From assembly GCA_003455715.1 (NCBI GenBank), contig DMQJ01000472.1, positions 1 through 13,263 of the forward strand: 13,263 bases of DNA, in the 5' to 3' direction. Below are positions 2,944 through 9,120 of the stretch, one piece after another. The DNA is from Acidimicrobiaceae bacterium (GTDB lineage: Bacteria > Actinomycetota > Acidimicrobiia > Acidimicrobiales > Ilumatobacteraceae). The position numbers and the translations under genes were made by a program. How positions within the stretch are numbered: the stretch's first letter is position 1; each line of letters begins with the position of its first letter. The notes under the pieces are model-generated. The model was not told the DNA's origin. It worked only from the letters and a program-made list of their open reading frames with translations, and searched no databases.

Positions 2944-2957
2944 GTGCCGAGACCCCA

Positions 2958-3002
2958 TTGTTGGCGTGGGCGCCGCACCTGGTGCAGCCTCAGCGCCGAC
3001 TT
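2958..3002 (+). repeat. Palindromic intergenic repeat, copy 3 (diverged)
   Basis: This shorter, diverged copy of the element at 1473 and 1544 lies 1.4 kb away in the same orientation. Outer arms GTTGGCG (2960-2966) and CGCCGAC (2994-3000) still pair with one G-T wobble. The inner stem is now GCAC/GTGC around CTG (2975-2985). It lacks the TTCGGCCCG tail. Its right end is flush with the stop codon (3005-3003) of the SAF-domain gene, repeating the stop-abutting placement of the other two copies. Confidence 0.75.
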
Positions 3003-3602
3003 TCAGGTGTGGCGGGCCAGGACGACGGTGCCGGCTTGGAGGTGGACGGCGACGGTGGCCGCGCAGTCGGGGGGAAGCCACACTTCCGTGGTGCCGCCCA
3101 TCGACGCCGCGTCGGATTCGACCGTGGGCCCGGCGAGGCCGTCGCACACTTCGCTGCCGTTGCCGAACACCACCACCGAGTCACCCGGCACCAGCGATGG
3201 CGCGCCAGTGCGGGGGAGCGCCATGGCCACCCAACCCGTCGGCGGCGCGGCATCGGAAAGGTCGAGCGCGGTCACCACTTCGCCAGCACCAACGCTTCGG
3301 CCGGCCACGCCCGTTGGCGCGGCGCTGACTCCCCCGGACGGCACCATCGCCAGCGGGAACTCTTCAGCCTTCACCGCCCACTCATCGCCCGCATCGAGCG
3401 ACCGACTGGCCACCCACACCGTGCGGGTGGTGCCCCACGCATCGGCCCGCCGGTCGGCGGCGGCGAGGGCCGACTGCACCGCCCACCAGCACGTGAGGCC
3501 GGCGACGGCAACGACCATCCAATACAGCCATGGGCGCTGGCTGAGCGCTGAGCGTGCTTTGGCCGCGATAGGCGGCACGGGCGGAAGACGACGGAACTGC
3601 AT
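3003..3602 (-). CDS. SAF-domain membrane-anchored protein (CpaB/FlgA-like)
   Basis: The 199-residue protein has a short basic N-terminus, one transmembrane helix at about 24-45 (WLYWMVVAVAGLTCWWAVQS) and an extracytoplasmic part. Residues about 60-118 resemble a SAF domain: TVWVASRSLDAGDEWAVKAE, then VAGRSVGAGEVVTALDL, the beta-clip fold found in CpaB/RcpC pilus assembly proteins and FlgA. A later segment (VPGDSVVVFG, 138-147) is the kind of strand-turn seen after SAF domains. A GGAGG ribosome binding site at 3612-3608 is 5 nt before the ATG, so unlike many neighbours it is not leaderless. It lies 100 bp downstream of fmdB on the same strand and may be cotranscribed with it. Its role is unknown, and no pilus genes are nearby. 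Confidence 0.8.
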   Translation of the reverse strand: MQFRRLPPVPPIAAKARSALSQRPWLYWMVVAVAGLTCWWAVQSALAAADRRADAWGTTRTVWVASRSLDAGDEWAVKAEEFPLAMVPSGGVSAAPTGVAGRSVGAGEVVTALDLSDAAPPTGWVAMALPRTGAPSLVPGDSVVVFGNGSEVCDGLAGPTVESDAASMGGTTEVWLPPDCAATVAVHLQAGTVVLARHT

Positions 3603-3702: not shown

Positions 3703-4059
3703 TCAGCTCGCCGCGGCCGACGACGACGTCGACGATGGCGTGGCGTTCGACGTCGAGGCGGCGCTGCTGGTGCCGCTCGAGGAACTCGACGTCTCGCTGC
3801 TCGACGAGCTGGACCCCGAGTCGGTGGCCGCGCTGCTCGTACTGCTCGACGACGAGGTGGAGCTGGACGACCCGCGGCTGTCGGTCTTGTAGAACCCGCC
3901 ACCCTTGAAGGTGACTCCCACCGGCGTGAACACCTTCTTCACCTGCATCACCTGGCCCGTAGCCGGGTGGGCGGCCTCGGTGAGCGCAGCATCGGTGAAT
4001 GCCTGCTGCACTTCGATGGTCTCGCCGGTCTCGACGAACTTGTAGACGTAAGTGGGCAT
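3703..4059 (-). CDS. FmdB-family regulatory/chaperone-like protein lacking the zinc-ribbon cysteines
   Basis: The 118-residue protein starts MPTYVYKFVETGETIEVQQA and continues with VFTPVGVTFKGGGFYKTDSR (43-62), the diagnostic FmdB/CxxC_CXXC_SSSS pattern. In ordinary members, two CxxC pairs (near residues 8-11 and 29-32) bind zinc. Here they are replaced by FVETG and AHPATG, and the whole protein contains no cysteine. Residues 63-118 are almost only Ser, Thr, Ala and Gly, clearly disordered. The M. tuberculosis relative Rv0991c (Ruc) is, as I recall, an HrcA-controlled chaperone switched on by cysteine oxidation and zinc loss. This form could not use that switch and might be permanently active (inference). 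An AGGAG ribosome binding site (4070-4066) lies 6 nt before the ATG, and a CIRCE operator lies 21 nt upstream of the start. In the tail, translation-frame caution is needed only because of low complexity. Confidence 0.88.
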   Translation of the reverse strand: MPTYVYKFVETGETIEVQQAFTDAALTEAAHPATGQVMQVKKVFTPVGVTFKGGGFYKTDSRGSSSSTSSSSSTSSAATDSGSSSSSSETSSSSSGTSSAASTSNATPSSTSSSAAAS

Positions 4060-4065
4060 CGATGG

Positions 4066-4070
4066 CTCCT
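4066..4070 (-). promoter_or_regulatory. Ribosome binding site of fmdB
   Basis: AGGAG on the minus strand with 6 nt to the ATG at 4059. It fixes the start and shows this gene has a real 5' leader, in contrast to the leaderless-looking neighbours. Confidence 0.7.
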
Positions 4071-4080
4071 GCAGAGGGAG

Positions 4081-4107
4081 TTAGCAGTCTGGTACGGCGA
4101 GTGCTAA
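4081..4107 (-). promoter_or_regulatory. CIRCE element (HrcA operator) in the fmdB-galU divergent region
   Basis: Read toward fmdB, the element is TTAGCACTC, then 9 bases, then GACTGCTAA. The CIRCE consensus is TTAGCACTC-N9-GAGTGCTAA, so 17 of 18 arm positions match and the spacer is exactly 9. CIRCE is bound by the heat-shock repressor HrcA, usually before groES/groEL or dnaK operons. It lies 21 bp upstream of the fmdB ATG, over or just downstream of a possible TAGCCT -10 (4112-4107). It also ends 12 bp before the candidate galU -10 at 4120, so it may touch that promoter as well. Confidence 0.85.
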
Positions 4108-4131: not shown

Positions 4132-4944
4132 GTGCGTGTCCGGACTGCCGTCATTCCGTGCGCGGGGAAGGGCACCAGGTTCCAGCCCATCACCCGCACG
4201 GTCCCCAAGGAACTGCTGCCCATCGTCGCCAAACCGGCGCTGCAACTGGTGGTGGAGGAGTGCGCCGGCGCTGGCATCGACCACGTGGTGCTGGTGAGCA
4301 GCCACGCCAAGCCGGCCATCGCTGCATTCGCCCTCGATGTCACCGAGCACATGCCCGGCATGCGCATGAGCGTCGCCTACCAAGACGAGCCGCTCGGTCT
4401 CGGGCACGCAGTCGGTTGTGCACGAGCCGCCGTGGGCGACGAGCCGTTCGCGGTGCTCTTGCCCGATGAGTTGATGGGCGACAGCAGCCTGCTGGCCCAG
4501 ATGATCGACGTGTGCGAGCGCACGGGTGGCAGCGTGGTGGGCCTGAAGCAGGTGCCGCGCGAAGAGGTTCCCGCCTACGGCGTCATCGACCCGTCGGGCG
4601 AGATGAACGCCGACGGTGTGGTCGCGGTGCGCACCATGGTGGAGAAACCGTCGCTCGCCGAGGCACCGAGCGACCTCATCATCATCGGTCGCTACGTGCT
4701 CACCAACGATGTCTTCGACCTCATCGATCAGGTGCAGCCCGGCGCCAAGGGTGAAATCCAGCTCACCGACGCCTTGCGGGTGCAAGCCGCTTCCGGCCCG
4801 TTCCACGGCGTGCTGAGCCGCATTCAACGCCACGACACCGGCAACCCGCTCGGCTGGCTCACCGCCGTGGTCGACATCGCGCTCGACGATCCCACGCTGT
4901 CGGCGCCGTTCGAGTCGTGGTTGCGAGAGCGCCTCGCCCCATGA
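4132..4944 (+). CDS. galU: UTP-glucose-1-phosphate uridylyltransferase
   Basis: The enzyme makes UDP-glucose from UTP and glucose-1-phosphate for glycan and envelope synthesis. The 270 residues show the nucleotidyltransferase signature VIPCAGKGTRFQPITRTVPKELLPIVAKP (7-35, quoted in part by its key residues G12, G14, T15, R16, K26), then YQDEPLGLGHAV (83-94), LLPDEL (109-114), PAYGVID (147-153), MVEKP (169-173), GRYVL (186-190) and KGEIQLTDAL (206-215). Members are typically 290-310 residues, so this is at the short end but complete. LPDEL replaces the more usual GDD-type sequence, as is common in GalU. The GTG start gives the correct N-terminus and follows a candidate leaderless -10. It overlaps the next gene by 4 nt and is divergent from fmdB, as in M. 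tuberculosis. Confidence 0.93.
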   Translation: MRVRTAVIPCAGKGTRFQPITRTVPKELLPIVAKPALQLVVEECAGAGIDHVVLVSSHAKPAIAAFALDVTEHMPGMRMSVAYQDEPLGLGHAVGCARAAVGDEPFAVLLPDELMGDSSLLAQMIDVCERTGGSVVGLKQVPREEVPAYGVIDPSGEMNADGVVAVRTMVEKPSLAEAPSDLIIIGRYVLTNDVFDLIDQVQPGAKGEIQLTDALRVQAASGPFHGVLSRIQRHDTGNPLGWLTAVVDIALDDPTLSAPFESWLRERLAP

Positions 4945-8977: not shown

Positions 8978-9075
8978 CGAGTGGGCACTCGCGCCCCGGG
9001 AGGCGAGTGGGCACTCGCTTGCCGGTTCTCACTCGGGTGGGCGACATCTCACTCGGGTGGGCGACACGTCACTCG
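8978..9075 (+). repeat. Cluster of five CACTCG elements: two palindromes plus a 20-bp tandem repeat
   Basis: The exact palindrome CGAGTG-GG-CACTCG occurs at 8978-8991 and again at 9004-9017. It is followed by a 20-bp direct repeat, ACTCGGGTGGGCGACA plus 4 bases, at 9031-9050 and 9051-9070, and a truncated third unit, ACTCGGGTC, at 9071. The word CACTCG therefore occurs at 8986, 9012, 9030, 9050 and 9070, with spacings of 26, 18, 20 and 20 bp. The cluster ends about 45 bp before the candidate -10 at 9121. Operators for a dimeric regulator, or a small satellite grown by slippage, would both fit. Confidence 0.75.
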
Positions 9076-9120
9076 GGTCAGCTCCCGCCCAGAAGGCGGC
9101 GGGGCACCATCGCGCCCGAC

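Follow-up and report, generated by a model that had tools for sequence, protein, structure and literature searches.

The 13,263-nucleotide contig DMQJ01000472.1 (hereafter the window), part of a 78.5% complete Ilumatobacteraceae genome (G000), carries an fmdB/ruc orthologue on its minus strand, running from position 4059 to 3703. Its product of 118 amino acids starts with MPTYVYKF...PVGVTFKGGGFYKTDSR and contains no cysteine (Cys). The N-terminal domain (residues 1-62; 3874..4059), which comprises the FmdB/Ruc frame MPTYVYKF ... VKKVFTPVGVTFKGGGFYKTDSR, is predicted to be ribbon-like from the family alignment and an AlphaFold2 model, and is followed by a C-terminal tail (residues 63-118; 3706..3873) with 33 serines among 56 residues, predicted to be disordered from its low model confidence. 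A Shine-Dalgarno-like AGGAG (4066..4070, minus strand) lies 6 nt ahead of the fmdB ATG. Further upstream, a CIRCE operator (controlling inverted repeat of chaperone expression, the HrcA site; 4081..4107) separates fmdB from a divergent galU-like nucleotidyl transferase gene (4132..4944, plus strand; PF00483). The gene downstream of fmdB (3003..3602, minus strand) encodes a SAF/CpaB-like protein, scoring 16.4 bits with the SAF model and 17 bits with CpaB, below the respective cut-offs of 21 and 71.

The window protein is an orthologue by descent of FmdB/Ruc, i.e. Rv0991c of Mycobacterium tuberculosis. It shares the MPTY start and the FKGxGFYKTD motif with this family, and the frame MPTY..FKGxGFYxTD could be aligned between Cys-free and Cys-containing proteins. 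Scores with the curated models were below cut-off (18.7 bits with TIGR02605, cut-off 31.3; 17.0 bits with PF09723, cut-off 34.4), as expected because the zinc ligands are missing. Such proteins are easily misread: the curated models leave the window protein below cut-off, and some records describe its relatives as FmdB 'transcriptional regulators'. The genomic neighbourhood is likewise shared: galU lies divergently upstream at 42 of 47 distinct Cys-free loci and at 65 of 80 Cys-containing ones, and presumably also near ruc in M. tuberculosis. The SAF/CpaB-like neighbour is frequent in the family, at 28/47 distinct Cys-free loci versus 6/80 Cys-containing loci. The window protein matched 34 of 37 Ilumatobacteraceae genomes; one genome of the same genus (G014, listed as 98% complete) gave no match to the Cys-free protein, and the gene may therefore be lost there or absent from the assembly. 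No Cys-containing Ruc-type copy was found elsewhere in the incomplete window genome, where the sole other FmdB match (on contig C90) belongs to another subfamily.

In the loci examined, a Cys-free Ruc/FmdB is a trait of the Ilumatobacteraceae. All 47 distinct loci of the family lacked cysteine (49 loci from 25 genera were sampled, of which L074 and L080 duplicate others). Outside the family, at least three Cys were present at 82/82 loci of the same class, drawn from 22 non-family matches of one search and 60 of the 233 of another (51 families among the 80 tabulated; L125 and L126 were read in addition), and at 40/40 loci from the remainder of the phylum, two of which had exactly three. The latter were taken from the better-scoring of 249 matched outside-class genomes, one to three per family, and cover 31 families. 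Thus, no Cys-free FmdB was found outside the Ilumatobacteraceae among the 82 class and 40 phylum loci; as these are a sample, further losses elsewhere are possible. A scan of named genomes with the family alignment confirmed 190 loci, of which 80 were kept, all Cys-free; the search words were drawn from the Cys-free alignment, and the scan is therefore uninformative about outsiders. In a protein database, 119 of the 120 relatives listed (of 5426) were Cys-free, and the remaining one has a Cys located after the FmdB domain. On a quick tree of 105 rows (43 Cys-free), built from the FmdB domain minus the four Cys columns and joined to GalU, the trait requires a single change, on a branch with a Shimodaira-Hasegawa-like approximate likelihood ratio test value of 84 (not starred). 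These results bear out the observation in the initial annotation, which had been made from the DNA letters, had named no strand and had described an FmdB member with both CxxC pairs replaced, a 56-residue Ser-rich tail and the genomic position of its relatives: despite the low model scores, frame, divergent galU and the one-change tree establish membership by descent, all four Cys columns are changed in the family alignment, and the mapping of cysteine loss that it had proposed places the event once.

What replaced the zinc ligands is itself conserved. The first Cys column (C8) is phenylalanine in 47/47 family sequences, C11 is Thr (38) or Ser (9), and C29 is mostly Ala (33), with Tyr in six, Leu in three and other residues in five; the fourth column, where the alignment is less sure because it adjoins an insertion, holds Thr (17), Asp (17), Ser (10) or other residues (three). 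The window protein has F8, T11, A29 and an H31-P32 region at these places. H31 (46/47), P32 (47/47) and G35 (46/47) are nearly fixed in the family and E13, T14 and E16 are invariant (47/47); across the N-terminal domain, 24 columns are invariant among 41 same-family sequences. The Cys-containing set shows C8 in 80/80, C11 in 77/80 (Thr in three, all of family f29), C29 in 63/80 (His in 12) and the fourth Cys in 79/80 proteins. In the three f29 proteins (L090, L101 and L111), only the second zinc Cys is changed, to Thr (CxRTGE), and the loop before the last Cys is longer; judged from sequence, their metal site is possibly partly changed.

The Cys-free domain is under purifying selection. Its median ratio of nonsynonymous to synonymous substitution rates (dN/dS) was 0.19 over 863 pairs, and that of the Cys-containing domain, in a set spanning many families, was 0.33 over 1516 pairs (pairs of equal domain length, dS 0.1-2.5). 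Since the two sets are unmatched for divergence, we used the value of 0.19 only as a sign of purifying selection. The tails are of similar length (family median 54 residues; 52 in the Cys-containing set) and serine content (47% versus 43%). Pseudogene decay is ruled out by the low dN/dS together with the new invariant residues, and a sequencing error or strain-specific loss by the agreement of the 47 family loci and the 80 kept named loci; on the same grounds, a decaying or mis-sequenced gene, for which the low scores with curated FmdB models might speak, is extremely improbable.

Structure prediction for the domain (45 residues, alignment of 41 sequences) gave block values of the predicted local distance difference test (pLDDT) of 90-93 for residues 1-40; in the tail, pLDDT was < 50 for residues 64-93. 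The first two predicted strands comprise the same residues in the Cys-free domain and in a Cys-containing orthologue, and the predicted structure of the Cys-free domain is a ribbon that folds without metal. Searches for solved relatives by sequence returned none at E ≤ 1 with the Cys-free alignment and a best E of 0.049 with the Cys-containing one. Structural searches gave weak ribbon-like matches only. The best rows of the second search were ribosome chains of ∼50 residues, which we take to be bL33; the best Foldseek matches include RbpA and MCM ribbons. RbpA may be a precedent for a ribbon without zinc, a point that the passages of PMC9695777 considered here did not confirm. Matches of this kind would fit a protein that is no chaperone at all and whose Cys-free domain, like other ribbon domains before it, has acquired a new binding role, e.g. 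on the machinery of transcription or of translation; we consider this quite unlikely.

The ribosome chains could also be taken to favour a zinc-sparing replacement, in which the benefit of losing the Cys was a lower zinc demand or less metal stress, and activity control was not the target. There is precedent for natural Cys-less forms of zinc-binding proteins, as mycobacteria possess zinc-independent alternative ribosomal proteins S14, S18, L28 and L33 (described in the part of PMC5912738 considered here). In contrast to the Ilumatobacteraceae, however, where the orthologue itself has been replaced family-wide, these are Zur-controlled paralogues that exist beside the zinc form. No zinc form of Ruc was seen beside the Cys-free protein among 27 other FmdB copies read in the family. 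A second FmdB protein above the PF09723 cut-off was detected in 71/121 family genomes. Copies were read at 27 of 30 loci: CxxC was kept in 27/27, and the FKGxGFY motif, and with it the Ruc type, was seen in 0/27. This second subfamily (MPxYEFRCxxC ... GCGxGCxC) resembles the window protein as a short FmdB of the zinc-ribbon kind but differs in its retained Cys and Cys-rich end; in the copy of the window genome (G000:C90:4354-4470; L006 and L063), the Cys pairs are intact and the C-terminal end is rich in Cys (GGGCGGGCAC). Zinc ribbons in general are therefore retained, which speaks against plain zinc saving, as does the fact that the operator found upstream of fmdB is of the CIRCE type (no search aimed at a Zur site was made). 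Taken together, zinc sparing is an unlikely explanation. FmdB-family proteins with UxxU, i.e. two selenocysteines, are counted among selenoproteins in the portion of PMC13188914 considered, and the same residues have therefore evolved in the opposite direction too.

The operator links the gene to heat-shock control. The CIRCE element deviates from the consensus at 1/18 positions and lies 21 bp ahead of the fmdB ATG, and no match was obtained in 200 shuffled windows. HrcA is encoded in the same genome (E 2.2e-42), which has four CIRCE-like sites with ≤ 3 mismatches: a pair ahead of groES-groEL and single sites ahead of a second groEL and of fmdB (groES and groEL were recognized by eye from open reading frames). 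This set matches that of M. tuberculosis, in which HrcA represses ruc and three Hsp60/Hsp10 genes (Becker et al. 2020, PMC7448276, of which selected passages are the source of all statements on Ruc made here). CIRCE was detected upstream of fmdB at 11/12 loci in the genus; with a cut of 5 mismatches, attained by 2/635 shuffled upstream regions, the counts were 19/47 in the family and 49/80 in the Cys-containing set. Because HrcA is present in 57/61 family genomes and CIRCE occurs somewhere in 55/61, several genera retain the regulon without a site at fmdB. The family loci L033, L034, L036, L060, L066 and others have an fmdB-galU gap of ∼27-28 nt, and the search upstream of their fmdB genes yielded no CIRCE. 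We also looked for an operator of the HspR type as a substitute for a missing CIRCE, and obtained no site with < 4/14 mismatches upstream of the 47 loci. Transcriptional control of fmdB via CIRCE is thus well supported by sequence for this genus, and is no family-wide rule.

How the protein may act is best approached from Ruc itself. Reduced Ruc, in which four Cys bind one zinc, is inactive; the oxidized protein is a holdase that feeds DnaKJE, and its activity needs the disordered tail (PMC7448276). The window protein shares with Ruc the MPTY start (as read from a primer in that study), the division into two parts, of which one is a disordered hydrophilic tail, and HrcA control alongside Hsp60/Hsp10 genes, and differs from this one-zinc, oxidation-activated protein in having no Cys. 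Thiol-based oxidation of a Cys-free protein is impossible. Constitutive activity is the simplest reading, because a protein without all four Cys escapes the switch of Ruc, and also the best one, because the zinc-free Ruc variants C8S,C11S and C29S,C32S are active when reduced, i.e. without oxidant (PMC7448276). These variants resemble the natural form in that ligand Cys are replaced pairwise and zinc is not bound, but they are man-made and leave two Cys each, whereas the natural form has lost four and evolved a conserved replacement. By this analogy, the chances that the Cys-free Ruc/FmdB is a constitutively active chaperone appear about even. The retention of a nearly unchanged Cys-free protein points to a chaperone-like function from which the redox switch has been permanently removed.

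The same conservation can be read differently. The new residues could form a stable metal-free copy of the zinc-bound, reduced and inactive shape, so that the protein would no longer be an oxidation-activated holdase and would have a redox-independent role (e.g. docking to DnaK) or be opened by heat or a partner. Strong purifying selection, the new invariant residues and the confident prediction of a metal-free fold with a strand pattern resembling that of a Cys-containing orthologue are consistent with this possibility, as is the co-purification of tagged Ruc with DnaK from M. tuberculosis to which no oxidant had been added (PMC7448276). It sits poorly with the activity of the zinc-free Cys-to-Ser variants in the reduced state, and with the retention of the kind of tail that Ruc requires for activity, at similar length and Ser content. 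We regard this alternative as possible, though on balance doubtful; sequence alone is insufficient to separate it from constitutive activity.

For the constitutively active chaperone, we infer a zinc-free state and a hand-over to DnaK, and propose the following course. A metal-free form of Ruc/FmdB would have become fixed a single time, in the founding lineage of the Ilumatobacteraceae, when the zinc knuckles gave way to metal-free turns (TGE and HPxxG) and to a phenylalanine that probably sits in the core. The small ribbon would thereby fold without zinc, with thiol oxidation ruled out, and the Ser-rich disordered tail, released from a zinc-controlled latch, would bind unfolding proteins and pass them on to DnaK. 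The working amount would be set by the level of synthesis. In this genus, synthesis would be under heat-shock control by HrcA and CIRCE, and where fmdB shows no CIRCE it would be governed by other means. The initial annotation had likewise suggested a constitutively active-like FmdB, controlled by transcription rather than by redox. Orthology, the lack of thiols, the shared position, the HrcA-type operator and the Cys-to-Ser precedent all speak for this proposal, and its transcriptional part fits the genus, though not the family as a whole.

Several points weigh against constitutive activity. No CIRCE was detected upstream at 28/47 Cys-free loci, and to our knowledge no Cys-free protein of this family has been assayed as a chaperone. 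The structure prediction carries no information on activity. The active Cys-to-Ser variants of Ruc may be unfolded ribbons and not equivalent to the natural domain, because the latter is predicted to be folded and is strongly conserved. Finally, the near-invariant H31 together with conserved acidic residues makes another metal or function conceivable.

Hsp33, compared with Ruc in PMC7448276, is likewise a redox-controlled zinc chaperone but is unrelated in sequence, and its domain (PF01430) was found in 0/61 family genomes, with 8/14 controls positive. Ilumatobacteraceae thus seem to be without both Hsp33 and a Cys-bearing Ruc (RidA and CnoX were outside the search). That a zinc chaperone activated by oxidation became, across the whole family, a metal-free protein that is permanently competent, keeps its ribbon fold and has no Hsp33 as a backup is a proposal we make tentatively, at somewhat less than an even chance.

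Few bacterial chaperones are known to be redox-regulated, and Ruc is one of them. If the proposal is true, the Ilumatobacteraceae protein is a naturally occurring equivalent, tuned by evolution, of the Ruc mutants with constitutive activity, and the redox switch of FmdB/Ruc is separable from chaperone function. A lineage that lacks the Cys and retains the domain, the tail, the locus and, in part, the operator offers a ready comparison for the restraint of the tail by the zinc domain: activity without oxidant would mark the switch as an add-on, and inactivity would mean that another job of the domain matters more. Already known, from the passages considered, are natural loss of zinc Cys in ribosomal proteins (PMC5912738) and the laboratory-made constitutively active Ruc. 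Judging by titles and the openings of abstracts among the matches listed (for one search, 15 of 174), we found no literature on a Cys-free FmdB or on a Cys-free Ruc orthologue conserved across a family.

Elsewhere in the window, a 62-nt intergenic repeat with partly self-complementary ends occurs at 1469-1530, 1540-1601 and 2953-3014. With 38 matches within the window genome, it is therefore a dispersed repeat of this organism, similar to repetitive extragenic palindromic elements. At 8978-9078, a 22-nt unit (CGAGTGGGCACTCGC...) occurs twice, and behind it stands a 20-bp tandem repeat (TCTCACTCGGGTGGGCGACA) in 2.6 copies.
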